A program made the position numbers and the translations under genes. Below are positions 21,460 to 41,656 of a stretch of 42,529 nt of DNA, piece after piece. Origin of the DNA: Undibacterium sp. (GTDB lineage: Bacteria; Pseudomonadota; Gammaproteobacteria; Burkholderiales; Burkholderiaceae_D). Location of the stretch: contig JANYFV010000013.1 of assembly GCA_025359635.1 (NCBI GenBank), forward strand, positions 1 to 42,529, in the 5' to 3' direction. The stretch's first letter is position 1, and each line of letters begins with the position of its first letter. A model generated the notes under the pieces. It did not search any database, was not told the DNA's origin, and saw only the letters and a list, made by a program, of their open reading frames with translations.

Positions 21460-21520
21460 ATGTAAGCTTATGTGCTTTTCTAATTCACTTTCTTTCCCAA
21501 CCTATTCCACTGGAGATACC

Positions 21521-22432
21521 ATGCATCCTCAAGAGCTAAAACAGATACTTTCGTCCGGATTATTATCCTTCCCTGTCACCGATTTCGATGCTGCCGGCAA
21601 TTTCAAGGCGGACACTTATGCAGATCGACTGGAATGGCTAGCGCCTTACGGTGCCAGCGCCCTGTTTGCGGCAGGTGGGACCGGCGAATTTTTCTCATTA
21701 ACGCCGAATGAATATACCGATGTCATTCAGGTTGCGGTAGACACTTGCCGTGGCAAAGTACCTATTCTGGCCGGTGCCGGTGGCCCTACCCGCACGGCAA
21801 TCGCACTGGCGCAAGATGCACAGCGCATCGGCGCGCAAGGCGTGTTGCTGTTGCCACACTATTTAACCGAAGCCAGCCAGGATGGTCTGGTGGCGCATGT
21901 AGAAGAAGTCTGTAAATCCATCGATATCGGCGTGATTGTGTATAACCGTGGCATCTGCCGCCTGACACCTGATTCATTGGAAAAACTCGCCGCACGTTGC
22001 CCGAACCTGATCGGCTTTAAAGACGGTATCGGCGATATCGAATTGATGGTATCAATCTGGCGTCGCATGGGTGATCGCTTTAGTTATCTAGGTGGTTTGC
22101 CTACTGCCGAAGTATACGCGGCGGCCTACAAGGCTATTGGCACACCGGTATATTCTTCAGCGGTGTTCAATTTTGTTCCTAAACTGGCGATGGATTTTTA
22201 TCACGCGGTAGCCAAGGACGATCATGTCACGATGAATCGCCTGCTCGACCAATTCTTCTTACCGTATCTGGAGATCCGCAATCGCAAGGCTGGTTACTCG
22301 GTCAGTATCGTCAAGGCGGGGGCTCGTCTGGTTGGGCATAGTGCTGGCCCTGTGCGTGCGCCATTGACAGATTTAACAGCAGAAGAAGATGATATGTTGC
22401 TCAAGTTAATTCTGGCACAAGGTCCGCAATAG
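21521..22432 (+). CDS. kdgD: 5-dehydro-4-deoxyglucarate dehydratase
   Basis: [72 protein letters not shown] (DHDPS-superfamily Tyr and Lys). Confidence 0.94.
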
Positions 22433-22502
22433 GCTTGTCAGCAGCGCCTAAAACAGCGGTTGAAACAATGACTGCAACAAGTAAAAAATAGAGGAATACG
22501 TA

Positions 22503-24083
22503 ATGCAAATTAACGGAAAAATGGTCATCGGCCAACAGACAATACTCGGCATGGCAGGTACCGTGCGCGCGATAGATCCATCCACCAATGCGGAGATAGA
22601 ACCGGCCTTCGGGTTGGCCAGCGAAGCAGAAGTACAGCAGGCATGTACATTGGCTGAAAGTGCCTTTGATACTTATCGCGAAACCACCTTGGAACAACGC
22701 GCCGCATTTCTGGAAACCATCGCAGATGGCATCATGGATTTAGGCACGACGCTGATCGACAGGGCGGCGCAGGAAACCGGCTTACCTCGCGCCAGACTCG
22801 AAGGCGAACGCGGTCGCACCATGAACCAACTACGCTTGTTTGCCAAAGTAGTCCGCGATGGCCGTTACTTGTCTGCCACACTCGATTCCGCCTTGCCGGA
22901 TCGTGCGCCTCCGCGACCCGATTTACGTTTACGCAAAATCGCCCTAGGACCGGTTGCGGTGTTTGGTGCGAGTAATTTCCCGCTGGCATTTTCAGTTGCC
23001 GGTGGCGATACCGCGTCTGCGCTGGCTGCTGGTTGCCCGGTCGTGGTCAAAGCACATAGTGCGCATCTGGGCACCTCAGAACTGGTTGCGCAGGTAATAC
23101 AGAAAGCAGTTGCCGCTTGTGGCTTGCCTGAAGGTGTGTTCTCGATGCTGATCGGTGATGGTCGCAATATTGGCCAAAGCCTGGTCAGTAACGCTGCGAT
23201 CAAAGCGGTAGGTTTTACCGGCTCACGCCAGGGTGGTGTTGCCTTGATGCGCACCGCGGCGCAGCGCCATGAACCTATTCCGGTATATGCAGAGATGAGT
23301 AGCATCAACCCGGTGTTCCTGCTACCTGGCGCACTAGCCAATAACGTCAGCACGCTGGCACTAGCCTATGTCGATTCGCTGACCATGGGGGCAGGTCAAT
23401 TCTGTACCAACCCTGGCCTGGTGCTAGCGCTACAAGGCAAACCGTTTCAAGATTTTGTCGATGCAGCGGCACATGCCCTGCACGCCAAAGCAGCGGCAAC
23501 AATGCTCACTCCTGGCATACATCAGGCCTATACATCGGGTGTGGCACGCTTGCATACCATCGAAGGCGTAGAAATAGTTGCCCAGGGCCAGGTTGGCACT
23601 TCCGGTTGTGCCGCGCAAGCGAGTCTGGCGCTATGCGACGCTAAAACATTTTTATCTACGCCAGCGCTGCAAGACGAAATTTTCGGCCCGTCGTCATTAT
23701 TGATCATGTGCAGCGACATCACGGAAATGCAACGCATTGCCGAGCTGATAGAAGGGCAATTGACTGTAACAGTTCACGCCACTGCTGCCGACCATGCATC
23801 GGCCAAAAGCCTGATGCCAATACTGGAAAGAAAAGCCGGTCGTATCTTGTTCAACGGTTTTCCGACTGGTGTAGAAGTGTCACATTCAATGGTGCATGGC
23901 GGCCCCTTCCCTGCCACGTCGGATAGCCGTAGCACCTCGGTTGGCGCATCAGCGATTGATCGTTTCGTGCGGCCAGTTTGCTATCAGGAAGTGCCCGCTG
24001 ATTTGTTGCCAGCGTGCTTATCCGATAGTAATCCGCTAGGTATTGCGCGCGTAGTTGACGGTGATTTGGTTTTGCCCCGGTAA
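22503..24083 (+). CDS. alpha-ketoglutaric semialdehyde dehydrogenase-type NADP aldehyde dehydrogenase
   Basis: VAVFGASNFPLAFSVAGGDTASALAAGCPVVVKAH, VGFTGSRQGG, catalytic MGAGQFCTNPGLVLA typical of the KGSADH branch; follows kdgD. Confidence 0.92.
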   Translation: MQINGKMVIGQQTILGMAGTVRAIDPSTNAEIEPAFGLASEAEVQQACTLAESAFDTYRETTLEQRAAFLETIADGIMDLGTTLIDRAAQETGLPRARLEGERGRTMNQLRLFAKVVRDGRYLSATLDSALPDRAPPRPDLRLRKIALGPVAVFGASNFPLAFSVAGGDTASALAAGCPVVVKAHSAHLGTSELVAQVIQKAVAACGLPEGVFSMLIGDGRNIGQSLVSNAAIKAVGFTGSRQGGVALMRTAAQRHEPIPVYAEMSSINPVFLLPGALANNVSTLALAYVDSLTMGAGQFCTNPGLVLALQGKPFQDFVDAAAHALHAKAAATMLTPGIHQAYTSGVARLHTIEGVEIVAQGQVGTSGCAAQASLALCDAKTFLSTPALQDEIFGPSSLLIMCSDITEMQRIAELIEGQLTVTVHATAADHASAKSLMPILERKAGRILFNGFPTGVEVSHSMVHGGPFPATSDSRSTSVGASAIDRFVRPVCYQEVPADLLPACLSDSNPLGIARVVDGDLVLPR

Positions 24084-24150
24084 GGACTTAATTCGCAAAT
24101 AGTAATTAGTAATTACCAATTAGTTCGCAGAAAAAATAGCTCAGCCCTTT

Positions 24151-24182
24151 CTCGGCATCCCCACGCAGGCGGGGATGCCGAG
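24151..24182. repeat. perfect inverted repeat, GC-rich hairpin related to the dRS3-like elements
   Basis: CTCGGCATCCCC-ACGCAGGC-GGGGATGCCGAG, 12-bp perfect arms, between ALDH and MFS genes. Confidence 0.85.
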
Positions 24183-24224
24183 ACCATGGCACAAATTAAA
24201 ATAAAAAAATACGGAGACACTCCC

Positions 24225-25604
24225 ATGTATCAACAAACCGTCGGCAAGTACAGATGGACCATCTGCGCCCTGCTGTTCTTTGCCACTACCATCAATTATC
24301 TTGACCGCCAGGTCTTAAGTTTACTGGCGCCAGACTTATCCAAAGAATTTGGCTGGACCAACAGTGACTACGCCAACATCACTGCCGCGTTTCAATTTGT
24401 GTACGCCATTTCCATGTTATTTGCTGGTCGCTTTATCGATAAAATCGGCACAAAAAAGGCCTTCATTCTGGCGATCACGATCTGGTCTATCGGCGCAATC
24501 ATGCATGCTTTTGCACTATCTCTAGGAACCGCAGCTTCGAACATTTTTACCTCTCTTGGCTTGGCGGCGGTACCGGTCTCGATTGCGGGTTTCATGATTT
24601 CACGCGCGGTGCTGGCGTTGGGCGAAGCAGGTAACTTCCCATCAGCGATCAAGGCAACTGCGGAATATTTTCCTAAAAGAGAACGTTCATTTGCAACCGG
24701 AATTTTTAATTCCGGTGCGAATATCGGCGCTGTACTTGCCCCCATGACCGTACCAATGATCGCCGCAGCCTGGGGTTGGCAGGCGACCTTTATTATCATC
24801 GGTGCTATCGGTTTTATCTGGATCGGATTCTGGATGATTTTCTATGACAAACCAGATCAACAAAAACGTCTATCTGCTACTGAACTGGCTTACATCAATG
24901 CGGACGAGACATTTGATGCCTCTCTCAGCAATGCAAGCATCGCTGACAGTGCAGAAAAAAAATTCTCCTGGTTTCAGCTATTAGGCTACCGTCAAACCTG
25001 GGCCTTCGCCTTCGGCAAATTTATGACTGATGGCGTCTGGTGGTTCTTCTTATTCTGGTTACCTAAATATCTGGCCGCGCAGTACGGGATGAAGACCACC
25101 GACTTCGTCTTCCCTTTGGCGGTGCTGTATAGCATGACCATGGTGGGTAGTATTGGTGGCGGCTGGTTCCCCACTTATTTCATCAACAAAGGTGACACCC
25201 CTTACGATGGCCGCATGAAAGCCATGCTGTTGATCGCGTTCATTCCTCTCGTCGTTTTATTGGCGCAACCATTTGGTTATATCAGCTTCTGGGTACCCGT
25301 CATTCTCATCGGCATCGGCACCTCGGCACATCAGGCCTGGTCGGCGAATATATTCACCACGGTATCGGATATGTTTCCGAAAAAATCGGTCGCCTCGGTA
25401 GTTGGTATTGGCGGCATGGCGGGCGGCCTGGGCGGTGTTTTGATCACAAAAATGGGGGGCTGGATTTTTGATTATTACGGTGCACTTGGCCAGCTTCATA
25501 CTGGTTACACCATCATGTTCGCCATCTGCGCCACAGCATACCTGGTTGCCTGGAGCGTAATGAAAACACTGGTACCAAAATACCAGGTCATTACTGATTT
25601 ATAG
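24225..25604 (+). CDS. MFS transporter, hexuronate (ExuT)-type anion:cation symporter
   Basis: FFATTINYLDRQVLSLLAPDLSKEFGWTNSDYANITAAFQFVYAISMLFAGRFIDKIGTKKAF; EAGNFPSAIKATAEYFPKRERSFATGIFNSGANIGAV. Confidence 0.92.
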   Translation: MYQQTVGKYRWTICALLFFATTINYLDRQVLSLLAPDLSKEFGWTNSDYANITAAFQFVYAISMLFAGRFIDKIGTKKAFILAITIWSIGAIMHAFALSLGTAASNIFTSLGLAAVPVSIAGFMISRAVLALGEAGNFPSAIKATAEYFPKRERSFATGIFNSGANIGAVLAPMTVPMIAAAWGWQATFIIIGAIGFIWIGFWMIFYDKPDQQKRLSATELAYINADETFDASLSNASIADSAEKKFSWFQLLGYRQTWAFAFGKFMTDGVWWFFLFWLPKYLAAQYGMKTTDFVFPLAVLYSMTMVGSIGGGWFPTYFINKGDTPYDGRMKAMLLIAFIPLVVLLAQPFGYISFWVPVILIGIGTSAHQAWSANIFTTVSDMFPKKSVASVVGIGGMAGGLGGVLITKMGGWIFDYYGALGQLHTGYTIMFAICATAYLVAWSVMKTLVPKYQVITDL

Positions 25605-25621
25605 ACGACAAGAACAAGATA

Positions 25622-26527
25622 ATGACGAGTATGGTGACGAATATAATAAGTACGGAACGTGTCAGCAACCTCAACTGCCTGGTGGGTGAAAGCCCGATAT
25701 GGTGTGCCGCACGGGGTGCATGGTTTTGGGTAGATATTCCGGCCAAAACCATCTGGCAGCTAGACGCCAGCTCAGGCACACTATGCAGCTGGCATACAAG
25801 TGAAATGGTCGCCTGTATCGCCCTCAAACAAGACGGTGATTTGATTGCCGGCATGGAGAGCGGCATCTTCAGTCTGCATTTGGGTGATCATAAAAATGCG
25901 CAAGAACAGCGCCTGGCTGCGCCAGAAAAACTGGTAGCAGGCATGCGTTTCAATGATGGTCGCTGTGATCGGCAGGGGCGCTTCTGGAGCGGCACCATGT
26001 TTATGGAGATGGCAGCTGCGCGCCCTGATGGTCACTTGTATCGTTACACCACTGAGCAAGGGATATCGCAGCCTTTTGTCTCGAACCTCATTGTACAAAA
26101 TGGCTTGAGCTGGTCACCCGATGGGCGCACCATGTACTTGTCTGATTCGCACGCGTCGCGTCAGTTAATCTGGTCTTTTGATTACGATATCGATTCCGGT
26201 ACGCCTTCCAACCAACGCGTCTTTGTCGATATGAATGCGCACCCAGGCAGACCAGATGGCGCGGCGGTTGATAGTGATGGCTGTTACTGGATATGTGGTA
26301 ATGACGGCGGCTGCATCCTGCGCTTTACACCCGAAGGAAAACTCGATAGCCGAATTAATCTCCCGATGGCAAAACCCTCGATGTGCAGCTTTGGTGGTGA
26401 TAAACTCGACACCTTATTGGTCACCTCAATCGCTGCTGGCAAGGCTGAAGGCGATCAGTGGGCCGGTGCAGTCGTAATGCTGCGACCTGGCGTAAAGGGC
26501 ATGCCGGAAACCGCTTTTTCTGCGTAA
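25622..26527 (+). CDS. SMP-30/gluconolactonase/LRE family lactonase
   Basis: LVGESPIWCAARGAWFWVDI, MRFNDGRCDRQGRFWSGTM, NGLSWSPDGRTMYLSDS, RPDGAAVDSDGCYWICGNDGGCILRFTPEG. Confidence 0.93.
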   Translation: MTSMVTNIISTERVSNLNCLVGESPIWCAARGAWFWVDIPAKTIWQLDASSGTLCSWHTSEMVACIALKQDGDLIAGMESGIFSLHLGDHKNAQEQRLAAPEKLVAGMRFNDGRCDRQGRFWSGTMFMEMAAARPDGHLYRYTTEQGISQPFVSNLIVQNGLSWSPDGRTMYLSDSHASRQLIWSFDYDIDSGTPSNQRVFVDMNAHPGRPDGAAVDSDGCYWICGNDGGCILRFTPEGKLDSRINLPMAKPSMCSFGGDKLDTLLVTSIAAGKAEGDQWAGAVVMLRPGVKGMPETAFSA

Positions 26528-26534
26528 GGCATCG

Positions 26535-28247
26535 ATGTCTTTTCGCTTATTTCATTACGGTATCGCTCTCGTTGCAAGTGCACTTTGTGCCTCTTGTGCA
26601 GTTTGTGTGAAACCCTCAACAGGCAGCAGCGATAAAGCGGCAGCACCGATCTCCCAGAGCCAAATGTGGGAGCCGGATTTAGGTAATGGCAAGTATCAAA
26701 ACCCCATCTTGCACGCCGACTATTCTGATCCTGATGTGATACGCGTAGGCAGCACTTACTACATGGTATCGTCGAGTTTCAACAGCTCTCCGGCACTGCC
26801 TTTAATGCAATCAAGTGACATGACTCACTGGAAGATTGTTGGACATGCACTACAGCGTCTGGTTCCAGCGGATGTCTTCGCTACACCCCAACACGGCAAA
26901 GGTGTCTGGGCACCGTGCCTGCGATTTCACGATGGCAAATTCTGGATTTTTTACCCTGATCCCGACTTCGGCATTTACGTTATCACGGCAAAAAACTTTT
27001 CTGGCCCCTGGAGCACACCGCATCTTCTGGCCGCTGGAAAAGGCTTGATCGACCCCACCCCACTTTGGGATGATGATGGCAAGGCGTGGTTACTGCATGC
27101 ATGGGCAAAAAGCCGCGCCGGATTCAATAATCAACTCACGCTAAAGCAAATGGCGTCCGACGCCAGTCACCTGCTCGATACCACTGGCAAGCTCGTCGTC
27201 GATGGCAATGCGTTGCCTGGTTACAGCACATTGGAAGGGCCAAAATTATATAAGCGCAATGGCTACTATTACATCTTCGCCCCGGCCGGTGGAGTAGAAA
27301 CCGGCTGGCAAAGCGTGTTCCGTTCAAAGAATATTACCGGCCCTTACGAAGACAAAATTGTATTGACGCAAGGTGCCAGCAACACCAACGGGCCACATCA
27401 AGGTGCTTGGGTGCAGACACCTGAAGGCACTGACTGGTTTTTCCATTTTCAAGATAAAAAAGCCTATGGGCGCGTCGTCCATCTGCAACCCATGCTATGG
27501 AAAAATGATTGGCCTGTCATCGGCACAATGAATGAAACAACCGGTATAGGTGAACCGGTAGCGCAATGGCACAAACCTATCAACATCAGTGACGCGCGTG
27601 AAAACCCGCCAACGTCAGATGATTTTTCATCGGATAAATTGGGACTACAGTGGCAATGGAACGCCAACTGGCAAGATAACTGGTATTCGCTGACTGCGCA
27701 TCCGGGCTATTTGCGTCTTTATACTCATACGCAAACGCAAGCAACAACAAATCTGTGGAATACACCGGCGATCCTGTTTCAGAAATTACCTGCCACTGAT
27801 TTTACAGTGGATACACAACTCAATTTTCAAGGTCATGAAGGCGATCGCGCAGGTCTCATACTGTACGGCATGAGCTATGCATGGATAGGCTTGGAAAAAC
27901 ACCAGGGGCAGACCTGGCTAGTACTTGTCACCTGCATGGACGCCGCTAAAGGTAACGACGAAAAAGTTGTAGAGCGTATCTCTCTGAATGGCAATTCTGC
28001 GCACCTCCGCCTGGTCATGAAACCACATGGTGTCAGTCAATTTTATTTCAGCCAGAATGGAAAAACATTCAGCGCCGCCGGCAAGGAATTTACAGCCGCA
28101 CCGGGACGCTGGGTTGGCGCAAAAATTGGCTTATTCAGCGTGAGTGGCGAGCACAGAGATAAAAATGAAAAAGATGAGAAAGATGAGAAAGATGAGAAAG
28201 ATGAAAAATCATACTCAGATTTTTCATCTTTCACTTTCTCCCACTAA
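26535..28247 (+). CDS. glycoside hydrolase family 43 protein with C-terminal beta-sandwich domain
   Basis: NPILHADYSDPDVIRVGSTYYMVSSSF, GLIDPTPLWDDDGKAWLLHA, YSTLEGPKLYKRNGYYYIFAPAGGV, DWFFHFQDKKAYGRVVHLQPM. Confidence 0.92.
   Translation: MSFRLFHYGIALVASALCASCAVCVKPSTGSSDKAAAPISQSQMWEPDLGNGKYQNPILHADYSDPDVIRVGSTYYMVSSSFNSSPALPLMQSSDMTHWKIVGHALQRLVPADVFATPQHGKGVWAPCLRFHDGKFWIFYPDPDFGIYVITAKNFSGPWSTPHLLAAGKGLIDPTPLWDDDGKAWLLHAWAKSRAGFNNQLTLKQMASDASHLLDTTGKLVVDGNALPGYSTLEGPKLYKRNGYYYIFAPAGGVETGWQSVFRSKNITGPYEDKIVLTQGASNTNGPHQGAWVQTPEGTDWFFHFQDKKAYGRVVHLQPMLWKNDWPVIGTMNETTGIGEPVAQWHKPINISDARENPPTSDDFSSDKLGLQWQWNANWQDNWYSLTAHPGYLRLYTHTQTQATTNLWNTPAILFQKLPATDFTVDTQLNFQGHEGDRAGLILYGMSYAWIGLEKHQGQTWLVLVTCMDAAKGNDEKVVERISLNGNSAHLRLVMKPHGVSQFYFSQNGKTFSAAGKEFTAAPGRWVGAKIGLFSVSGEHRDKNEKDEKDEKDEKDEKSYSDFSSFTFSH
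28160..28209 (+). repeat. 9-bp tandem repeat (AAAGATGAG)n encoding (KDE)n
   Basis: aaaaatgaaaaagatgagaaagatgagaaagatgagaaagatgaaaaatc inside the GH43 3' end; encodes KNEKDEKDEKDEKDEKS. Confidence 0.9.
28196..28232. terminator. 15-bp perfect inverted repeat at the convergent GH43/GH28 gene ends
   Basis: GAAAGATGAAAAATC-ATACTCA-GATTTTTCATCTTTC; lies within the last codons of GH43 and 43 bp past the end of the minus-strand GH28. Confidence 0.5.
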
Positions 28248-28274: not shown

Positions 28275-30131
28275 TCAGACCGTAAAACTCTTGTTATAAA
28301 CCGTCCCGCCTATCGTGACATTGTTTAAACTCAAGCCCTGTACGTTATACAAAAACAGCGCTTGTTTTGTATTCACTGGCGTACCAAAATTGCAGTCACT
28401 AATGCTGACATTGCTGACTGGCAGCACCGCTGGCGCTGGCTCAGGTCCGTTGTAATTTGAAGCGACCGGTCCCAAAATAACGATCGCTTGATAACAGGAA
28501 AAGCGCCCGCCTTTTGCGGCGACATTGCCCACGGTTACATTTGAAATATGCACATTCGACACTTCTGGTGGCCGCGTTCTGACATTGTCGGCAAGTGGCG
28601 TGTAATCGCAATCAAAAGTGATCACTGCACCGGCGGCCGTGGCGACTGTCTTGGCACTGATCGGTGAGTTCGGTGGTGACGCGTAAAATGACGGGCTGGT
28701 CTGTACCCCGTTAGGGATCTGAATATTGCGCACGTAAAAATTTCTTAAATAACCACCACGGTTCATATTGGTTTTTAAACGTATCGCGGTATTGAGCGGA
28801 TTCGTGGCCCAGTTAATATTTTCGAACAAGAGATTTTGCGCGTAGACATTTTGTATTCCGCCCGCCATCTCACTACCCAAGGTAACAGCACCATGGCCAC
28901 TTTGCATGGTGCAATTCTGGATCACGATATTCTGTGATGGGCCATATTGCGTGTCGAGATCCTTGCCGGCTTTGATGGCAATGCAGTCATCACCAGAATC
29001 AAATGTACAGGCATCAACCAATACGTAATTACAGGCTTCCGGATCAAAGCCATCGCTGTTCGGGCCATGACTTTTGGCATACACATTCTTGATCATGATG
29101 TCACGGCAATTCACGGGATGATGCTGCCAAAATGGTGTATTCGTGACCTGGTAGCCCTGCAATAAAACTTTGTCGCAACTGATGAACTGTATCATCGGTG
29201 GACGCAGATAATGCCCCATGCCAAAGATGCGTTTCGCGAGCGGAACGCCTGCCTCAGATAATGCAGGAAGATAAGCTCCATCTGCGCGCCAGTGTTCGCC
29301 TGTACCTTGTATCAACGCTTGCTGCGCATCAGACAAACCAGGTGCGAGTGCGGTCAGCGATTTGGGGTTCAAGGAGTTCAGCGTATTTTCCGACATATTG
29401 CCTGCGACGAAATTGGGGCTGCTGCCCTGCGCTACTGAGTTGATGGTTTTATTCTTACCTTTCCAGGTCCACCAGCAATCCTGACTTCCGGTAAACGGTA
29501 CGCCGGCCTGGCCATTGAGAACGCTGGTCCAGTCGTCGCCGGTCAATGCAATATTACTTTGGCCGTAGGCGTACACCATCGGTGAAAAATTCAGGCAGTC
29601 ATTGCTTTGCCATCTGGAGATGACCAGCTTGCCGTTCGCACCGCAATCGACTGCACCGTATTTGGCATAATCTGCCGGGTCATTACTGAAATAAACCTGC
29701 GCACCGGCGTTCAAATGCACGTTAACGTTCGAGAGCAAAACGATGGGGCCAGCACAATACCAATTACCAGCAGGGATCACGACACGGCCGCCGCCAACCT
29801 GATGGCAAGCAAGGATCGCTTTGGCAATCGCGGCATAACAATCGGTGGCATCGCTCACAGGAGACTTCAGCGTCGCCTTCTCTTCATACGAGATCCACGC
29901 GGCGACTGTCGCTAGCTCACAAGATACAGCGCCAAACGCGGTAATCAAAAAACTCTCTTTGCGAAACACTAAAGGTTTTGCAAAACGATCAATGATGAGT
30001 TGTGCCTGATCCCAAGGATCTTTCGGTACCGTAGCTACCGCCTTGGAGATGCCGCTCGCCAAGGATATACCAGTGACAGACATCGCCTGCATGAATTTTC
30101 TGCGCTGCTGGGCAAATTTATTTTTGTTCAT
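28275..30131 (-). CDS. GH28 polygalacturonase-like glycoside hydrolase with Tat-type signal
   Basis: QQRRKFMQAMSVTGISLASG twin-Arg; GH28 motifs NSDGFDP, SGDDCIAIKAG, SGHGAVTLGSE, IRLKTN. Confidence 0.9.
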   Translation of the reverse strand: MNKNKFAQQRRKFMQAMSVTGISLASGISKAVATVPKDPWDQAQLIIDRFAKPLVFRKESFLITAFGAVSCELATVAAWISYEEKATLKSPVSDATDCYAAIAKAILACHQVGGGRVVIPAGNWYCAGPIVLLSNVNVHLNAGAQVYFSNDPADYAKYGAVDCGANGKLVISRWQSNDCLNFSPMVYAYGQSNIALTGDDWTSVLNGQAGVPFTGSQDCWWTWKGKNKTINSVAQGSSPNFVAGNMSENTLNSLNPKSLTALAPGLSDAQQALIQGTGEHWRADGAYLPALSEAGVPLAKRIFGMGHYLRPPMIQFISCDKVLLQGYQVTNTPFWQHHPVNCRDIMIKNVYAKSHGPNSDGFDPEACNYVLVDACTFDSGDDCIAIKAGKDLDTQYGPSQNIVIQNCTMQSGHGAVTLGSEMAGGIQNVYAQNLLFENINWATNPLNTAIRLKTNMNRGGYLRNFYVRNIQIPNGVQTSPSFYASPPNSPISAKTVATAAGAVITFDCDYTPLADNVRTRPPEVSNVHISNVTVGNVAAKGGRFSCYQAIVILGPVASNYNGPEPAPAVLPVSNVSISDCNFGTPVNTKQALFLYNVQGLSLNNVTIGGTVYNKSFTV

Positions 30132-30165: not shown

Positions 30166-32883
30166 TTATTCGTTGGTATTATTAAACTCAGCCAAAAACA
30201 CCTCGGCTGGCGACGGTTTGGCGCTATACCCCAATTGAGAAACCGGATCGATACCAACGTTTAACAGATTGCGCCAATAATCATTCGAGCTGTATTGCGC
30301 AGGGCGGTAAGGCAGCGTGCCGTTCTTATTCCAATCCGACCAAGGATGGGTTTTATGAATATGTGCACCGATAATTGAATTCAGAATCACGCTCTTGCCG
30401 ACTGTTTCCAGTACCGTCTTTGACACCGTGCCGACGGGTGCCGCATAGCCATCAACCAAGCCCAAGCTGCAAGAGTAGCCGGGCGTGTTCACTCTGCCAT
30501 AGGGCGTACATTTTTGCGTGTGAAACCATTGTCGCCCCAGATAAAATTGACCGGCCAGGGCATTCGCACTGCCATCATGGGTAAATTTGCAATGATTAAA
30601 CACAAAGCCGTATTTGCTCTGGTAATTGGTGTTGGGTGCAGTCACGTAAGAGGTCGATCGATCACCTAATGATTTGATCTCGCTCTGATAAAAATAGGCG
30701 GTAGTGTCACCAAAAATGAAATCGACATTTCCTTCGATATACGATTGATTAAAAAAACTGCGCACCGTCTTTGCAATCTCAGGGGACTTCAAATACAAGG
30801 TATCCTGAAAACCCAATACACGAACGTTCTCAAATTGCAGCTTGTCCGCACCATCGAGCATTAATGCCACAGCCTGATGGTGCACCACTACAGCCGGTGC
30901 CGTGCCTGCGGTAGCGCCGCAAGTGCTGTTGGGACATTCAGCGCCAGGCTCTACTTTTTCTTTGTTATAAGCGTTTTCAAACGTGATGTTTTTGGCTTGA
31001 AATCTATTGCTCTTTATCCAGGCGATGGCAGTGCCGCTAGTTCCGACCACGGGTCGATCTTTCAGTGAAGTAAACATCTCTTGAATGGCGTCATCAAGAC
31101 CGGAAAACTGTGCGCCGAATCTTGCTACATAAGCGCTGCCCAACAGTGCGGCATGCACGCTCGCTGAGATTCTGGTGTGGCTTGCATCCTTGTCGTTGGA
31201 ATACAGTGTGATGGGGATCTGTGTTGCCGGCACATACAGCAATTCACGATACACACCCGGTTTTAGCAATATGTAAATGCGCGCTTTGTGCTGCGCCTGA
31301 AGTGCTAAGGTTCTGCTTTCGATAACGGCCTGGTTAATCGCTGCCTGTACGCGATGAAACACCGTCTTGCCATTCTCCTGCGCAGCCGGATCGACGATAT
31401 AATCAACCGGAAGCGTGCTATTTTTTGCCAGGGCATCCTTCAAGGGGTCCCAGTGATCGGTAATTTCCTGACCGGCCTTACCGACAGTTTTCAGCACTTC
31501 AAGATAGTCATAGCGTTTGGCTTGATCTGCGCTCAATTGTGGTCGGCTATCTGGTGTCTGTGTGACAGGGAAAGGCACAAACTGATCGTCACAATGCACC
31601 GTCGCCACCCCAGAAAAATCAATGTTGGAATTCGCTTCTGATGAGGCCACAGCAGTCTTATCTTTGAGCAAATTCACATACTTGATTTGCTGCGCGGGCT
31701 GAGCGTCAAACAGCACATTCTGCAGTTGAATTTGCAAAGAATGCTGCGCGTCGTAGCCTTGCATAATCACCCGGCCAGGTGTCAGGCTATGCACCCGCGC
31801 TAGTGTGATTTTTTGATACTGCGGAATCAGCCTACCCTGTGCCTGCGGGTTGTAGCGGGTGTCGATATCAATCGGCTTACGTACATCGCGCAGACAGACA
31901 TTTTGATACAGCACATCCGTCACCAGGCCACCGCGCGAGACATCGCTCTTGATGCGCAAACCCGAGCTGCTGCCTTCCATACTCAAGCCATCCACCAGAA
32001 TATGGCGCACGCCGCCATTGGTCTCGCTGCCTATCGACATGCCGTGCCCGTTATAAAAATGATTTTGCAGGATAGAGATATTTTCGCTGGGGCCATTATT
32101 ACCGGCCTTGATGGCGATATTGTCGTCACCAGTGCGCAGATAGCTATGTGCAATCGTGATATTGCGTGAAGAAATGGGATCTATGCCATCGGTATTTCTG
32201 GCGTCAGTTGGTGTATCAAGACGCACACCCCAGGCAGTAAAACCATCTACCCGATTTAAGGTGACATGAAAATTTGCTGAGTTGCGCAAAGTAATACGGT
32301 ACAGAGTGATTTCTTTGGAACGGCTAATTTCAATCAGGCGCGGCACATTGTGTTCATTATTTTCTTTCTGAGCACGACGTGCCAGTTGCCACCATGATTC
32401 TGTTTTACCTGCAAGCAGCTGACCGCCCTGTCCATCAATCACGCCATCGCCCATGATACTGCTGCCTTGCGCATCGTCGATACTGATGAAAGGTTTACAG
32501 CCACGCCCGGCCACACCGTTGCTGCCACAAGTGTGCAAGCCTTTATCATACAAGGCCGCATCAGTACTGGCATACAAGGTGACACCGGAATTGATACGCA
32601 AACTGACGCCGCTTGGCAGCATTAGCGGGCCGGAGACGAAGGTGGTTTTTTCGTTATTGCTGGCTAGCTGCACCGCCTGACCGGCGCTACATTGATTGAA
32701 GGCCTGCTGTATGCGCGGCGCATCATCTACCCCTGGCTTTGCGGCATCACTCTGCGTAGCAATCAGCACCATGCAGACCGGCGGCAAAACTGGCTCAATG
32801 ACCTGACGGGTATCCTGCGCATGCACCTGTATGGCGCATGCACTTAGCAAAAAATACGTCAGGAGGCGTGAGGTAGACTTCAT
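30166..32883 (-). CDS. bifunctional GH28 polygalacturonase + CE8 pectin methylesterase fusion
   Basis: N-term signal peptide SACAIQVHAQ; GH28 motifs NTDGIDP, TGDDNIAIKAG, NGHGMSIGSE, LRIKSD; C-term CE8 motifs HQAVALMLDG, GFQDTLYLK, GNVDFIFGDTTAYF, YLGRQWF. Confidence 0.92.
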   Translation of the reverse strand: MKSTSRLLTYFLLSACAIQVHAQDTRQVIEPVLPPVCMVLIATQSDAAKPGVDDAPRIQQAFNQCSAGQAVQLASNNEKTTFVSGPLMLPSGVSLRINSGVTLYASTDAALYDKGLHTCGSNGVAGRGCKPFISIDDAQGSSIMGDGVIDGQGGQLLAGKTESWWQLARRAQKENNEHNVPRLIEISRSKEITLYRITLRNSANFHVTLNRVDGFTAWGVRLDTPTDARNTDGIDPISSRNITIAHSYLRTGDDNIAIKAGNNGPSENISILQNHFYNGHGMSIGSETNGGVRHILVDGLSMEGSSSGLRIKSDVSRGGLVTDVLYQNVCLRDVRKPIDIDTRYNPQAQGRLIPQYQKITLARVHSLTPGRVIMQGYDAQHSLQIQLQNVLFDAQPAQQIKYVNLLKDKTAVASSEANSNIDFSGVATVHCDDQFVPFPVTQTPDSRPQLSADQAKRYDYLEVLKTVGKAGQEITDHWDPLKDALAKNSTLPVDYIVDPAAQENGKTVFHRVQAAINQAVIESRTLALQAQHKARIYILLKPGVYRELLYVPATQIPITLYSNDKDASHTRISASVHAALLGSAYVARFGAQFSGLDDAIQEMFTSLKDRPVVGTSGTAIAWIKSNRFQAKNITFENAYNKEKVEPGAECPNSTCGATAGTAPAVVVHHQAVALMLDGADKLQFENVRVLGFQDTLYLKSPEIAKTVRSFFNQSYIEGNVDFIFGDTTAYFYQSEIKSLGDRSTSYVTAPNTNYQSKYGFVFNHCKFTHDGSANALAGQFYLGRQWFHTQKCTPYGRVNTPGYSCSLGLVDGYAAPVGTVSKTVLETVGKSVILNSIIGAHIHKTHPWSDWNKNGTLPYRPAQYSSNDYWRNLLNVGIDPVSQLGYSAKPSPAEVFLAEFNNTNE

Positions 32884-32952: not shown

Positions 32953-33759
32953 CTATTTATCGTTTTTAAAAAATGGCGTGATGGAGTTGAATGTTTGTTT
33001 CATTTCCTGCTCGACCATCCGGGAGAAAAATTCTGCCCCTTTGGCACCGAGATGGGTGCGGTCAAAATCAGTTTTTGCCGCGCCGGCAGGTTCGAGCTTA
33101 TTCACATCGATTTTAAGCGTGGCGATCACATTTTCCGGCGGCGCCATGGCCAGAGTATCTGCTTCGGCCTGCCCCATGGCCTGCACTGCTGCGTAACTGT
33201 CGGCGTTCAGATCGAGCAAGGCAAGCCGCTGTTCGATCGCCACTTTCCGGACCGCGTCTGCCCAGGCTGCAAGATTATTTTCCAGTGCTCCAGCATGAAA
33301 AGTCCTGCGTGTCAGCGGTGTCACCAGCACGGGTGTACCGCCCAGCTCCTTAACTTCGCTGGCATAGGTCGCCATATTCAGCGGGAACTCGGTGACCAGA
33401 TCGGTAGATCGCCCGGGTTTGCCCGGCTGATCGTTATGGCCAAATTGAATTAGCACATAGGTTGCGCTATAGCGACCGCCCGCACGCAATAAATTCTGTA
33501 CATTGCTCCACAAGCCTTCAGCACGAAAACTGCCTGAACTGCGCCCGCCTCGCGCCAAATTGATGCAACTGACATTCGCTTGAAAACGCTGACACAACGC
33601 GTCGCCGTACCCACTGCGCGGTGCCATGGTCGAATCGCCCACCAGAATGACGCGTATCGGCGCAGCGCTCACCAGACTGGGTGCTGTTTGCGCAACCGCA
33701 CTTGCTTGCACGCCAAACAAACTGGCAAGAAAAATCACTACGGAAAATCGAGAATTCAT
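32953..33759 (-). CDS. SGNH rhamnogalacturonan acetylesterase (CE12-type)
   Basis: RVILVGDSTMAPRSGYGDAL, CINLARGGRSSGSFRAEGLW, YVLIQFGHNDQPGKPGRSTDL, DRTHLGAKGAEFFSRMV. Confidence 0.93.
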   Translation of the reverse strand: MNSRFSVVIFLASLFGVQASAVAQTAPSLVSAAPIRVILVGDSTMAPRSGYGDALCQRFQANVSCINLARGGRSSGSFRAEGLWSNVQNLLRAGGRYSATYVLIQFGHNDQPGKPGRSTDLVTEFPLNMATYASEVKELGGTPVLVTPLTRRTFHAGALENNLAAWADAVRKVAIEQRLALLDLNADSYAAVQAMGQAEADTLAMAPPENVIATLKIDVNKLEPAGAAKTDFDRTHLGAKGAEFFSRMVEQEMKQTFNSITPFFKNDK

Positions 33760-33787
33760 ACTTTCGTCCTTGGCACGTAAACAAATT

Positions 33788-33817
33788 GCGTGCGCCAAAT
33801 CATGATCTGGCGCACGC
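33788..33817 (-). terminator. Strong hairpin between TonB receptor and CE12 gene
   Basis: GCGTGCGCCA-AATCATGATC-TGGCGCACGC, perfect 10-bp stem; AATTTGTTT follows on the minus strand. Confidence 0.65.
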
Positions 33818-33835: not shown

Positions 33836-36532
33836 TTAGAAGTTGTAAGTCAGACGGGTATTCACAGAACGTCCAATCGGGCTTGCTGCGCTGCTCAGGT
33901 AACCGTTATAGCCACTATGGTTAGTCACCGGAGGTTTTGCATCAAACAGATTGGCAATACCGACGGCTATCACGAAGTGATTGAAGCCTTTATAAGCTGT
34001 GGTTAAGTTAAACGACGAGTATGGTTTGATGTCGCGGAAATATTGCGCGGCAACCAGATTTTGATCGTGATAACCGGTGTTGTAGTTTTGCGTCAATTGG
34101 GCATTCCAGTCTGTTTTTGACCATGACAAAGCCAGGGTATGCTTCCAGCGGAAAGTAATAATCGGCAAGCTACTGGTGGTACCGTTGCTAGCCAGACCAA
34201 AACGGCCGATATTCGATGAGAAATCGCCGCCCTTTTCTAACTGATTATCAAATTGCGTCAGATACGTTCCATTCAGTTGCACATTAAAATCACCTGCATC
34301 CGTTTTTGGTAAGCGGTAGGCAAGGCCAACGTCGATACCGCTGGCTTTTTGACCGCCGAGATTCATCGTGATGTTTTTGATGTACAGCAATTTACCCGTG
34401 GCATCGCGAACAAATAAATCCGCATATTTTGCCGGATTCAAGAAGTACGCTTGTTCCGGTAAATTGGCTAACATATTGTCCATCGTAATCTTCCAGAAAT
34501 CAAAAGAGGCGGTCATATTCTTCATAGGCTCAATCACGACACCTAATGTTCCACCCTTTGATGTTTCTGGCGTCAAGGCTGCATTGCTGCCTGTTTGTCT
34601 CGGCAACTTCAAATTACACACCGTGGCTGAAACCAGACCTGGTAAGGCTTTGCCTGATCCGGCAACCGCAGGTGTCGCGCTTGGGCATTGCAATGGATCA
34701 TCCCATGCAGCACCAGTTGTTGCGTTGGCACCAGCGACACGATATCCATAGCGATCAAATAATGTCGGTGCGCGGAAACCGGTATTGACCGAACCTCGAA
34801 ACATTAATGCAGCAGTCGGTTGATAGCGGAAGCTCGCTTTAGGGTTAATCGTATTGCCGAAATCGCTGAAGTGATCGTCACGTACGGCGAGGTTAAAATT
34901 GAGCTGCTTGGTGGCTGGAATTTCCAACTCTGTATATAGTGCAGCAACGTTACGTGCTCCCTGACCATGCGATGGCACAGATGCAGCATAGGTCGCCAAA
35001 TAGCCCAGATCCGTCTTGGTATCTTCTGTCGTATCACGGTGATAATCTGCACCGATCGCAATACCCAATGGGCCTGCTGGCAATTGCATTAATTCTTTAT
35101 TCACGGTGAGTTCAAGTCCGGCAAAAGTACTTCTTGAAACACGCAGTATTTGTCCGTCCAAGCCGATACTCTTCAGGTAATCCAATCCAGCAGTGTCTTG
35201 CAAGCCAAATGGATTGAGTGTCCCATTACTGATACCAGTGAGCAGTTTGGCGCCGTCAACAGAACCAGAATCCAATGCACCAGTGCGATCACTTACGCCA
35301 TAGACAACTCCTGCTTTATAGTCCCAACCTGCCAGACTTCCCTCATCGCTCAGGCTAAAGCGCTGATTGATTTGTTCATCTTTAGTGATATATGGGCCAA
35401 GCTCAGCCACGCTCCATGTCACAAGCAAAGGTGCGCCTGTTACACCGGCAACAGTTGGTACGCCGCCGCTTTTTCCCGGATACCATTTACTGGTGGATGG
35501 CAGCAGTGCAGTAACCCCATTGGCAGCAAGACTAGTGGTGGGTACTTTGGTGCCAAAAATATGTTCTTGTCCGCGGGAATAATCAGCCGTGATGTAATGG
35601 TCGTCACTGATTTTTTTGCTCGCTTTTGCATAGAACGTAGTCTGATCATTCTCGTACAAAGCAGTGTTATAGGTCAGATTGTTAATGACACAGGTATTGT
35701 TCGCACCCTTTATTGAGTATGGCGCGGTACATCCAGTAGCGTAATAAGGGTTGGCCGCCTTGAAGGTTTTAACGCTTGGTATGGTGAAGTTTGCCGGGCT
35801 GGCGAAGCCGCCACTGGCCAGAGCAGGTGCACGACCTATGCTGGTTAATAACTCAGGAGAACTCAACTCTGCACGGTCTGAACCCAACAGACGACTTCTG
35901 CGGTGTGCGTCCATCGTTGCATAGACATTCCAGCCATCTTGTTGCAGATCACCGGCACCGACAATAAAACTCAGGCGCTGCTCATCGCCACCACCAGTTT
36001 TTCGCGGCTGTACTGTTTGTGCCGTAATTGAAGCCCCTTTGTAGTCACGTTTGGTAATGAAATTGACGACACCGCCAATCGCATCTGAACCGTAAATCGA
36101 CGATGCACCATCATTCAAAATCTCTACACGTGCAATCGCACTCATAGGAATAACATCCAGATTCGCGTAACCATCAGCGATTGCCTCGTTGGCCATACGA
36201 CGGCCATTGAGCAAGACCAAAGTACGATTCACACCCAAGCCGCGCAGATTAATATTGGTACCAGAACCAGCATTCGATGGTGCCAGTGAACTCGATTGCG
36301 GCAATGCCATCATCAGATCTGCCAGCGAAGTCATACCACGCTTTTCCAGATCTTCACCGGCAATGGCGGTGATCGGAAGTGACGCTTCACTAGCGAGCCG
36401 TTTAATCGACGAACCAGTAACTTCAATCCGCTGAACTTCTTGTGCCGACACTTGATTCATCATTGTGATCACAGCAAGTGTAATGCCTGACAACACCAGT
36501 TTTGGTGTATGGTATGTATTACTTTTTTTCAT
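33836..36532 (-). CDS. TonB-dependent receptor of the pectin locus
   Basis: 898 aa; signal MNQVSAQ; VQRIEVTGSSIKR, RGLGVNRTLVLLNGRRMANEA, VEILNDGASSIYGSDAIGGVVNFITKRDY; terminal NTRLTYNF. Confidence 0.94.
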   Translation of the reverse strand: MKKSNTYHTPKLVLSGITLAVITMMNQVSAQEVQRIEVTGSSIKRLASEASLPITAIAGEDLEKRGMTSLADLMMALPQSSSLAPSNAGSGTNINLRGLGVNRTLVLLNGRRMANEAIADGYANLDVIPMSAIARVEILNDGASSIYGSDAIGGVVNFITKRDYKGASITAQTVQPRKTGGGDEQRLSFIVGAGDLQQDGWNVYATMDAHRRSRLLGSDRAELSSPELLTSIGRAPALASGGFASPANFTIPSVKTFKAANPYYATGCTAPYSIKGANNTCVINNLTYNTALYENDQTTFYAKASKKISDDHYITADYSRGQEHIFGTKVPTTSLAANGVTALLPSTSKWYPGKSGGVPTVAGVTGAPLLVTWSVAELGPYITKDEQINQRFSLSDEGSLAGWDYKAGVVYGVSDRTGALDSGSVDGAKLLTGISNGTLNPFGLQDTAGLDYLKSIGLDGQILRVSRSTFAGLELTVNKELMQLPAGPLGIAIGADYHRDTTEDTKTDLGYLATYAASVPSHGQGARNVAALYTELEIPATKQLNFNLAVRDDHFSDFGNTINPKASFRYQPTAALMFRGSVNTGFRAPTLFDRYGYRVAGANATTGAAWDDPLQCPSATPAVAGSGKALPGLVSATVCNLKLPRQTGSNAALTPETSKGGTLGVVIEPMKNMTASFDFWKITMDNMLANLPEQAYFLNPAKYADLFVRDATGKLLYIKNITMNLGGQKASGIDVGLAYRLPKTDAGDFNVQLNGTYLTQFDNQLEKGGDFSSNIGRFGLASNGTTSSLPIITFRWKHTLALSWSKTDWNAQLTQNYNTGYHDQNLVAAQYFRDIKPYSSFNLTTAYKGFNHFVIAVGIANLFDAKPPVTNHSGYNGYLSSAASPIGRSVNTRLTYNF

Positions 36533-36709: not shown

Positions 36710-37411
36710 TTAACCTCTTGAGAATGTACGTGTCACACGCTCCAGATGTGCCCGCATGGCACGTCTAGCTTCCGCCGGATCGTGTGCTGCAATCGCCTCT
36801 AAAATATTGCGGTGATCAGTGAGGGTTAGCTGACGTAATTCCTCGGTCTGAAAATGTTCTTTTAAGCGATTCCAGAGACGGCCACGTTGACTCCACAAAT
36901 ACTCAACGGTACCGACCAAAGCGCTATTCCCGGTGGCCCTTGCGATGGACATATGAAACTCGCGGTCAGCATGTTCGTTACTAGCATAATCTGCATGATG
37001 TTTTTCCATCTCCAGCACGGCTTTTAAGATGGCATCAATCGCACCGTCGGTGGCAACCCTGGCCGCGATCGCTGCAATTTCAGATTCGATCAGGCGACGT
37101 GCGGATAAGACTTCAAACGGCCCCGGCCCGACTTCAGGCAAATCGGTCTCGACATCTGCCTTCTCGCTAACATAGACACCCGAGCCGCCACGTACCTCAA
37201 CTACGCCGCCTAATTCCAGCGCCAGAATTGCCTCACGCAAAGAGGCCCGACTCACACCGAGCTTGGTTGCCAGATCGCGTTCTGAAGGAAGGCGCTCACC
37301 TGATAGGATTTTCTCATCACTGATCAGTGACTGAATTCGATCAGCCACTACCCGATACAACCTTGGTTCGGGTGAGATAGCGTCATGGAGTGTATTAATT
37401 TTTTTTATCAT
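36710..37411 (-). CDS. FadR/GntR-family transcriptional regulator (FCD domain)
   Basis: ILSGERLPSERDLATKLGVSRASLREAILALELGGVVEVRGGSGVYV; FCD REFHMSIARATGNSALVGTVEYL, HRNILEAIAAHDPAEARRAMRAHLERV. Confidence 0.95.
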   Translation of the reverse strand: MIKKINTLHDAISPEPRLYRVVADRIQSLISDEKILSGERLPSERDLATKLGVSRASLREAILALELGGVVEVRGGSGVYVSEKADVETDLPEVGPGPFEVLSARRLIESEIAAIAARVATDGAIDAILKAVLEMEKHHADYASNEHADREFHMSIARATGNSALVGTVEYLWSQRGRLWNRLKEHFQTEELRQLTLTDHRNILEAIAAHDPAEARRAMRAHLERVTRTFSRG

Positions 37412-37452: not shown

Positions 37453-37504
37453 TGGTCAGGCCATTCTAATGTGGCCAGACCAATTTTGCAATGTGGACTA
37501 GCCA
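37453..37504. promoter_or_regulatory. Cluster of three TGG-N5-CCA candidate FadR-type operators
   Basis: TGGTCAGGCCA (37453-37463), TGGCCAGACCA (37472-37482), TGGACTAGCCA (37494-37504) in the regulator/garD divergent intergenic region. Confidence 0.7.
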
Positions 37505-37577
37505 AATATTTTTTTTAGTGGCATACTCGCCACAACACAGAGTTAAAAAACACGTTCACCACGCAAAGGACGAGAGC

Positions 37578-39146
37578 ATGAATGAGGTATCAACAGCTGC
37601 ATCAATGGCGAATTTACCTTTGTTTATTCGCATGCACGACAACGATAATGTCGCTATCGTAGTCAATGACGGCGGCCTGCCTGCAGGTGCCAGGTTTGCT
37701 AGCGGCCTGGTATTGCGCGAAGCCATACCGCAGGGACACAAAATCGCCTTGCGCGCTCTGGCTGAAGGTGAAGCTATCTTGCGCTACAACGTCACTATCG
37801 GACATGCGGTGCGTGACATCGCCGAAGGCAGCTGGATAGAAGAATCACTAGTACGCATGCCGCCAGCCAGAGACCTGAACAACCTACCTATCGCCACCCG
37901 CATAGCGGTCAGACCAGATCCTTTGGAGGGCTATACATTTCAGGGTTTCCGGAATGCCGATGGCAGCGTGGGCACGCGTAACATCCTTGCCATCACCACT
38001 ACCGTGCAGTGCGTGGCTGGCGTGGTCGAACATGCAGTCAAACGAATTAAGCAAGAGCTACTGCCGAATTTCCCGAATGTCGACGATGTGATCGGGCTAG
38101 AGCATACCTATGGCTGCGGTGTTGCAATCGATGCGCCGGGTGCCATGATACCGATACGCACGGTGCGCAATATCAGCCTCAATCCCAACTTCGGCGGACT
38201 AGCCATGGTGGTCAGTCTCGGTTGCGAAAAACTACAACCGGCACGCCTATTCCCCAAAGGATCGATTCCTATCCAGAATGGAGGTGACCCTGTGGTCGTG
38301 TGTTTACAGGATCAGGAGCACGTCGGCTTTGAATCGATGATCGCCTCGATTCTGAAAACTGCCGAACTGCAATTGGCTCAGTTAAATCAACGCCAGCGTG
38401 AAACTTGCCCGGCCTCAGAACTGGTGATCGGCGTACAGTGCGGCGGCAGCGATGCCTTCTCTGGTGTCACGGCCAACCCGGCGGTCGGTTTTGCCACTGA
38501 TTTGCTGGTGCGCGCTGGTGCTACCGTGATGTTTTCCGAAGTCACGGAAGTACGTGACGGCATCGATCAACTCACCTCACGCGCCGCCAATGCGGAGGTA
38601 GCCGAAGCGATGATACGCGAGATGGAGTGGTACGATAATTACCTCAAGCGTGGCGGGGTAGATCGCAGTGCCAACACCACGCCCGGCAATAAAAAAGGCG
38701 GTCTCTCAAACATCGTTGAAAAAGCCATGGGTTCGATCGTCAAATCGGGCAGCGGCACCATTACCGGTGTATTGGCACCGGGCGAAAAGCTTAGCCAAAA
38801 AGGACTGATCTACGCCGCCACACCGGCCAGTGACTTCATCTGCGGCACCTTGCAATTAGCGGCTGGCATGAATATGCATGTCTTTACAACCGGGCGCGGC
38901 ACACCTTACGGCCTGGCCGCTGTTCCGGTCATCAAGGTCGCTACCAGAAATGACCTAGCCAAGCGTTGGCACGATCTGATGGACATCAACGCCGGACGTA
39001 TCGCCAGCGGTGAAGCCAGCATTGATGACATAGGCTGGGAATTATTTCATCTGATGCTGGAAGTCGCCAGCGGCAAAAAAACCTGGGCTGAACACTGGAA
39101 ATTACACAATGCGCTGGTGCTATTTAACCCAGCGCCGATTACCTGA
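37578..39146 (+). CDS. garD: galactarate dehydratase (GarD/UxaA family)
   Basis: [29 protein letters not shown]-domain; [70 protein letters not shown]. Confidence 0.9.
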
Positions 39147-39382: not shown

Positions 39383-40204
39383 ATGACATCTACTACAACT
39401 GCCAAACCCTTCAAAAGAATTTTACTGACTGGCGCTGCCGGCGGTCTGGGAAAAATACTGCGCGAGCGCATTAGACCCTGGGCTGAGATTGTGCGCCTCA
39501 GCGATATCGGTGACATGGGAGACGCGCGCGAAGGGGAAGAAATTGTCCAATGCGATCTGGCCGATAAACCCGCTGTACTGGCGCTGATGGAAGGGGTCGA
39601 CGCCGTCTTGCACTTTGGTGGCATCTCTACCGAAAATAATTTCGAAGCGATTATGCAAGCGAATATTCTCGGCACCTACAATCTGTATGAAGCGGTACAC
39701 AAATGCCAGGTTAAGCGCGTGATTTTTGCCAGTTCCAATCACACCATGGGTTACTACCGCACGACTGATCTGGTCGATGCCGATATGCCAGCGCGGCCGG
39801 ATGGTATGTACGGTGTCAGCAAATGTTTTGGCGAAGATCTCTCGCGTTATTTCTATGACAGATTTGGTATCGAAACCGTTTGTATACGGATAGGATCAGC
39901 CTTTCCTGAGCCGATCAACAAACGCATGATGGTGACTTATTTCAGCTATGACGATCTGGTCGAACAGTTACGCTGCTCGCTGTTCGCGCCACGCGTCGGC
40001 CATACCATCGCCTTCGGCGTCTCGGACAATGAAGGCAAATGGTGGGACGACCGCAAGGCTGGCCATCTGGGATTTAAAGCCAAAGACAGTTCCACAAAAT
40101 TCGCCGGTAAATTTCCCGATAGCGCAGAGTATCCGGCCGCTGATGATGTCACCACTATCTTCCAGGGCGGCGGTTTTTTGCTCACCACACCGCAATACAA
40201 ATAA
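39383..40204 (+). CDS. udh: uronate dehydrogenase (NAD-dependent epimerase/dehydratase superfamily)
   Basis: KRILLTGAAGGLGKILRERI, VDAVLHFGGISTENNFEAIMQANILGTYNLYEA, FASSNHTMGYYRT, GMYGVSKCFGEDLSRYFYDRFGIETVCIRIGS. Confidence 0.93.
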   Translation: MTSTTTAKPFKRILLTGAAGGLGKILRERIRPWAEIVRLSDIGDMGDAREGEEIVQCDLADKPAVLALMEGVDAVLHFGGISTENNFEAIMQANILGTYNLYEAVHKCQVKRVIFASSNHTMGYYRTTDLVDADMPARPDGMYGVSKCFGEDLSRYFYDRFGIETVCIRIGSAFPEPINKRMMVTYFSYDDLVEQLRCSLFAPRVGHTIAFGVSDNEGKWWDDRKAGHLGFKAKDSSTKFAGKFPDSAEYPAADDVTTIFQGGGFLLTTPQYK

Positions 40205-40249: not shown

Positions 40250-41656
40250 GTGAAAAAAAAATCTCAATTGCTAGTGGCTGTCGCCGCATTAACCTTGCTA
40301 TTCGGCGAAGCTCGTGGCGAGGGTACCTACCGCAACACAGACAATAAAAATCTGGCCGACCTGGGAGAAGGTAGTTACCCTGTACCATACAAGAAACCCG
40401 TGATAGCAGAAATTAGTGATGCCTTGCACCGCATCCGCAATTATCTTGAATCAGTGACGCCGACACGCGTTATTCTCAACTCGTCTCGCGAGCCAGTCAC
40501 TGACTTTAGCGAGCCAGTAGCCGATGCCATCTTCGAGCCGAGCAAAGGTGACTATGGCATCATGGTCTACGAAATGGGAGTGGTGCATTCTGGCTTACTC
40601 AAAGCCAGCGAAGTCACAGGTGACCAGCGTTTCAACCAGATGACCGCACGTCACTTACAATTTTTTTCCGACAAGATGCCATATTTCCGCGCTCAGGAAG
40701 AACAGTTTCACCTTGAACGCGGCAATAGCTTTTCGCGCTTCCTCGATCCACGTTCACTCGATGATGTCGGCTCTATGTGTGCGGCCCTGGTACGCGCCCG
40801 CTTCGCCAAAGTTGGCCCGGACATGCGCCAGATGATTACCACGTGTAGCAACTTCGTCTCGCAAAAACAATACCGCCTGACCGATGGCACCTTGGCACGC
40901 AAGCGCCCACAGGCATCATCCCTTTGGGCTGACGATATGTATATGGGCGTACCTGCTCTTGCTGAGATGGGCCACCTGACCGGCGACAAAATCTGGTTCG
41001 ATGACGCGGTCAAAAACGTACTGCAGATGTCCGCCTATATGTACAATCAGCAGCTGGGTCTGTACACCCATGGCTGGAACGCCAACAACCCGGACGCACC
41101 ACAGTTCTACTGGGGTCGTGCCAATGGCTGGGCTGTGCTAGCGATGAGCGACCTGCTCGATGTGCTGCCGAAAAATCATCCTGGCTATCCCAAAGTATTG
41201 GCACAACTGCGTGCCAGCCTGCACGGCATTGCGCAACTGCAGTCCGGTAGCGGCCTGTGGCACCAGATGCTGGATCGTAACGACTCGTATCTTGAAACAT
41301 CGGCCAGCGCCATCTTCGTTTATACAATTGCACACGCCGTCAATCAGGGTTGGATCAACGCGGCTACCTATGGTTCAATCGCGCAGGCCGGCTGGAACGG
41401 TCTTGCAACCCGTATCAACGCCAAAGGACAAGTGGAAGGTACCTGTGTAGGAACCACGTTTGCCAGCGATCAGGTTTACTACTACAACCGACCTGTCAGC
41501 GTCGATGCCTTACACGGCTATGGTCCGACCTTGCTAGCAGGTGCCGAGATGATCACGCTACTCAAAAACCCTGCGATCAGCATCGAATACAAAGTCCGCA
41601 CCTATCACTACATTCCATCCATCGGCGGTAAGACCGACTACAGCGAACACCATTAG
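40250..41656 (+). CDS. GH105 (GH88-like) unsaturated rhamnogalacturonyl/galacturonyl hydrolase
   Basis: GTG start; SLWADDMYMGVPALAEMGHLTGDKIWFDDAV, GLYTHGWNANNPDAPQFYWGRANGWAVLAMSDLLDVLP, GLWHQMLDRNDSYLETSASAIFVYTIAHAVNQGWI. Confidence 0.92.
   Translation: MKKKSQLLVAVAALTLLFGEARGEGTYRNTDNKNLADLGEGSYPVPYKKPVIAEISDALHRIRNYLESVTPTRVILNSSREPVTDFSEPVADAIFEPSKGDYGIMVYEMGVVHSGLLKASEVTGDQRFNQMTARHLQFFSDKMPYFRAQEEQFHLERGNSFSRFLDPRSLDDVGSMCAALVRARFAKVGPDMRQMITTCSNFVSQKQYRLTDGTLARKRPQASSLWADDMYMGVPALAEMGHLTGDKIWFDDAVKNVLQMSAYMYNQQLGLYTHGWNANNPDAPQFYWGRANGWAVLAMSDLLDVLPKNHPGYPKVLAQLRASLHGIAQLQSGSGLWHQMLDRNDSYLETSASAIFVYTIAHAVNQGWINAATYGSIAQAGWNGLATRINAKGQVEGTCVGTTFASDQVYYYNRPVSVDALHGYGPTLLAGAEMITLLKNPAISIEYKVRTYHYIPSIGGKTDYSEHH

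Follow-up and report, generated by a model that had tools for sequence, protein, structure and literature searches.

The locus considered here raises two questions: whether a polygalacturonase and a pectin methylesterase are genuinely encoded as one protein on the minus strand of this Undibacterium contig, and what such a protein would contribute to pectin breakdown. "The window" denotes the entire stretch of DNA that was analysed (42,529 nucleotides). Within it, an ATG at 32883 opens a frame of 905 residues that continues without interruption to a stop at 30166, and we read its product, with a probability of roughly 0.82, as an exported pectinase with two domains, part of a pectin-utilisation cluster; its CE8 domain would demethylate and its GH28 domain would hydrolyse. 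An AAGGA motif resembling a ribosome-binding site lies just 5′ of this ATG, where the signal peptide begins, and an earlier start at TTG 32934 is a possible alternative. The fusion protein is the sole pectinesterase found in its own genome and is encoded by one of two GH28 genes there.

Table 1. Features of the fusion gene and its surroundings, in window coordinates
Feature	Position	Strand	Basis or remark
GH28-CE8 fusion gene	30166..32883	-	single uninterrupted frame, 905 aa
Sec signal peptide (predicted), residues 1-23	32815..32883	-	sequence by eye; cleavage expected near HA/QD
GH28 domain, PehA-like, residues 24-406	31666..32814	-	Pfam, PDB match, motifs, alignment, model
Interdomain linker, residues about 407-446	31546..31665	-	alignment of relatives
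CE8 domain and C-terminal extension, YbhC/PemB-type, residues 447-905	30169..31545	-	Pfam, alignment, model
Separate GH28 neighbour, Tat-like RRKF leader	28275..30131	-	nearest alpha-D-galacturonidase and PglA models; NSDG, GDD, GHG, RLK present
SGNH/GDSL esterase, weakly PaeY-like, candidate pectin acetylesterase	32953..33798	-	operon, directly upstream of fusion
TonB-dependent receptor, candidate oligogalacturonide importer	33836..36532	-	profile match, context
GntR/FCD regulator resembling UxuR/ExuR	36710..37411	-	profile match, context
Galactarate dehydratase	37491..39146	+	TIGR03248, above cut-off
NAD-dependent epimerase-family protein, candidate uronate dehydrogenase	39383..40204	+	family match; function inferred from context
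GH88-family hydrolase, candidate unsaturated uronyl hydrolase	40250..41656	+	family match
DHDPS-family protein, aldehyde dehydrogenase, MFS transporter, SMP-30 lactonase, GH43	21470..28247	+	rest of galacturonate oxidation and side-chain cluster

Domain architecture and active sites

From the N to the C terminus, the fusion protein consists of a signal peptide, a PehA-like GH28 domain, a variable linker and a CE8 domain of the YbhC/PemB type. The single frame and the two Pfam matches bear out an earlier reading of the sequence alone, which had placed both enzymes in one exported polypeptide; the domain boundary, which it put at residues ~440-500, falls slightly earlier, at about 407-446. In relatives, the stretch aligned to residues 401-446 ranges from 20 to 57 aa.

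The first half matches the GH28 family (PF00295) at residues 65-404 with an E-value of 9.5e-57 and 193 bits against a gathering score of 22.9, and its PDB match is 1bhe (335 bits), the PehA endo-polygalacturonase of Erwinia (Pectobacterium) carotovora. The motifs NTDG, GDD, GHG and RIK occur at positions 230, 252, 279 and 310, structurally equivalent to those of the known enzyme, such that D232, D253, D254, H280, R310 and K312 correspond to D202, D223, D224, H251, R280 and K282 of 1bhe. An AlphaFold2 model of the fusion protein, built from 48 aligned sequences without a row that derived from a plasmid record, is strand-rich in both halves and less certain in the linker (mean pLDDT 88); at a pTM of 0.68, how the two domains sit relative to each other is not settled. 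In this model, the GH28 half is predicted to form the right-handed parallel beta-helix of its family, and a Foldseek comparison returns PehA at a TM-score of 0.96 by target length and 46% identity. PehA thus shares the fold and all six catalytic residues, and ends at the point where the linker of the fusion protein towards CE8 starts.

The second half matches the pectinesterase family (PF01095) at residues 667-786 (E 4.3e-23; 81.9 bits against a gathering score of 27), with QAVAL at 670, QDTL at 693, DFIFG at 721 and LGRQW at 782. In alignment with PemA (1qjv), Q670, Q693, D694, D721, R784 and W786 are all intact, which reproduces the PemA active site of two Asp, Arg and Gln/Trp. Foldseek places this half among pectin methylesterases, the rice weevil enzyme (4pmh) ranking first with a TM-score of 0.84; 4pmh and the YbhC/PemB-type proteins (3grh; NF007822, NF041901) share its CE8 fold, and E. 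coli YbhC (3grh) also shares its N-terminal segment. YbhC and PemB are the nearest named CE8 models, both scoring under their curated cut-offs (for the NCBIfam YbhC and PemB equivalogs, 214.9 of 436 and 140.5 of 700 bits, respectively), and so the substrate may be oligomeric instead of polymeric pectin.

Genomic context, export and proposed action

The fusion gene belongs to an operon encoding the TonB receptor, the SGNH esterase, the fusion protein and the Tat-type GH28, an arrangement kept in most relatives examined. In these genomes the GntR gene usually accompanies the operon, which often adjoins genes for galactarate dehydratase, aldehyde dehydrogenase, lactonase and GH43. Taken together, these genes look like a pectin-utilisation cluster that supplies oxidative galacturonate catabolism. 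Elsewhere in the window, an exported-looking protein that runs off the end (41707-42528) is probably a further member of the cluster, and a DUF1631 protein (10827-13061) lies outside it.

The signal peptide contains a lipobox-like LSAC ending at Cys16, and targeting to the outer membrane as a lipoprotein, as for PemB, was considered and dropped: because the cysteine occurs in just 5 of 56 aligned proteins, the fusion protein is unlikely to be a lipoprotein, while for the window's protein alone its own LSAC makes this possible. The protein would be located in the periplasm, or outside the cell through a type II system.

Because a single exported polypeptide carries GH28 and CE8, and neither lacks a catalytic residue, dual methylesterase and polygalacturonase activity in a single molecule is plausible. 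Following Sec export, the CE8 domain would take methyl esters off homogalacturonan or methylated oligomers, after which the demethylated stretch would be hydrolysed by the PehA-like GH28 domain, with the tether holding the two activities equimolar and co-located. Products would be imported via the TonB receptor, the SGNH esterase would deacetylate, the Tat-exported GH28 would trim ends, and monomers would pass into the oxidative galacturonate pathway encoded alongside. The order of action, and any benefit of tethering, is what we infer from this gene set.

Where the enzyme meets its substrate bears on this scheme. Conceivably, the protein is periplasmic and its substrate is not polymeric pectin outside the cell but short, imported methylated oligogalacturonides, on which CE8 and GH28 would act in sequence. 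PemB is an outer-membrane enzyme that prefers oligomers, and the similarity of the CE8 half to the PemB/YbhC types, together with the TonB receptor in the operon, favours such a location; however, the GH28 half is nearest to PehA, a secreted endo-polygalacturonase, and the genome possesses a gspD secretin of the type II system scoring above cut-off. This alternative has nearly an even chance of being correct.

Fused and unfused relatives

The full fusion is present in 64 of the 395 Oxalobacteraceae genomes searched, the window's own genome included (counted from the search table, 62 with one alignment and two with two pieces of a single frame). These fusions span at least five genera, the named relatives being mostly Undibacterium but also Rugamonas and Duganella, and share 49-83% identity; the rarity attributed to the fusion when the sequence was first read was thus overstated. 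Several relatives have open frames of 1130-1781 aa, which had suggested a triple fusion with an extra N-terminal domain. This reading was rejected: in L016, L017 and L044 the additional stretch is stop-free, out-of-frame sequence 5′ of the start, and the remaining long-frame relatives are taken, by extension, to be the same case.

In 18 genomes of the family, the CE8 part matches a gene without GH28, and where flanks were read this CE8-only gene usually takes the position that the fusion gene has elsewhere, following SGNH. As most of those examined have the operon with a CE8 gene that lacks GH28, the coupling is not essential, and the "tight coupling" proposed for the two activities is not borne out; the fusion is widely kept yet dispensable. 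The CE8-only locus L085 aligns with its closest fused relatives, L050 and L082, over the last stretch of the SGNH gene and some of the signal-peptide region, as expected from an in-frame removal or insertion of the GH28 module; between signal peptide and CE8 of the same operon, the module is absent from L085 (2100-2400) and present in frame in the other two. CE8-only proteins fall within groups of fused ones in the CE8 tree, which requires at least eight changes; the GH28 tree requires at least three. We read this as one main fusion followed by repeated GH28 loss, with the rooting uncertain, and repeated gain of the module is a possible alternative. Genus g6 has the pair unfused: a DUF11-repeat CE8 gene from a distant CE8 lineage stands beside a separate GH28 gene (L104, 2426-4795 and 4854-6707).

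A GH28-CE8 fusion also occurs on a conjugative plasmid of Rhizobium sp. AB2/73 (WP_209160125; L124, 14968-17268 in NZ_CP067074.1). It has the same domain order and 38-41% identity, and since a related GH28 is paired with an only distantly related CE8 half, it probably arose independently. The plasmid gene adjoins repC and transposase genes, with a VirE2-family gene about 12 kb off. In genome G815 (L064, 140-2958), GH28 and CE8 are encoded side by side in two genes, each of them related to one half of the Rhizobium protein, and among 398 genomes of the order to which G815 belongs no further case of the Rhizobium-type fusion was found.

These comparisons bear on whether the tether matters at all. 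The two domains could be independent enzymes whose fusion only secures co-expression, the tether bringing no kinetic benefit, as the variable linker, the repeated presence and absence of the GH28 module at one slot, and the separate, adjacent genes of g6 and G815 would suggest. Retention of the fusion across at least five genera, and its second, apparently independent appearance on the Rhizobium plasmid, argue against this idea, whose chances fall just short of even. At the other extreme, it is a speculative and rather unlikely proposal that on highly methylated pectin the tethered demethylate-and-cut enzyme does better than separate enzymes would, and that the GH28 module comes and goes at a single operon position whenever a species turns from methylated polymer to oligomers already cut, or back.

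Purifying selection clearly acts on both halves, judging by dN/dS against the closest relative of 0.088 (GH28) and 0.085 (CE8), rough values because synonymous sites are near saturation. As first claimed from the sequence, the catalytic motifs of both halves are kept: 55 fused Oxalobacteraceae proteins and the one Rhizobium fusion agree at all the catalytic residues tested, and a check for loss of these residues on alignment finds none. That one half is catalytically dead, with CE8 reduced for example to a binding module, as might be true of YbhC, is therefore very improbable; YbhC, which is structurally close, carries Asn in place of the acid/base Asp (QNTF for QDTL), but the fusion protein retains Asp694, and the six CE8 active-site residues are invariant in the fused family. 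The concern that an assembly error or missed stop had merged two genes can be set aside almost entirely, with only the 602-contig assembly in its favour, and against it the recurrence of the fusion across the family without internal stops, on single-contig assemblies as well (e.g. G177, G220, G339 and G361).

Relation to known pectinase fusions

PL1 and CE8 are both parallel beta-helices, and fusions of the two have been published, so the tandem of helices that the sequence-only reading took to be structurally unusual is not new. Multidomain CE8-PL1 and PL10-CE8 pectinases are described in ruminococci (PMC4081043); they likewise tether a methylesterase to a homogalacturonan depolymerase, but in place of a GH28 hydrolase they use a lyase as depolymerase, and those listed bear dockerin or CBM modules. 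No paper naming a GH28-CE8 fusion was found in the open-licence PMC literature, which is weak evidence of absence. Both enzymes joined here are well known, and the fusion is a modest variation on published esterase-depolymerase pectin fusions. Its interest lies in being a natural, conserved polygalacturonase-methylesterase fusion whose fused and unfused close relatives share one operon slot, thus offering a comparison for tethering in pectin breakdown, and in being a candidate single-protein pectinase. It also exposes an annotation gap: the one annotated record of such a fusion, that of Rhizobium, is named merely "pectinesterase family protein".

CE8 is joined to another pectin enzyme elsewhere too, namely in a two-domain CE12-CE8 esterase of Bacteroides xylanisolvens (PMC4769552) and in L058 (439-2658) and L075 (1605-3803), where an SGNH/GDSL esterase replaces GH28 at the CE8 N terminus (Pfam matches for both); in these the partner is an esterase and not GH28. 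The window's operon resembles the SGNH-CE8 fusions in that its SGNH gene adjoins CE8, and L059 and L060 probably carry the same SGNH-CE8 fusion.
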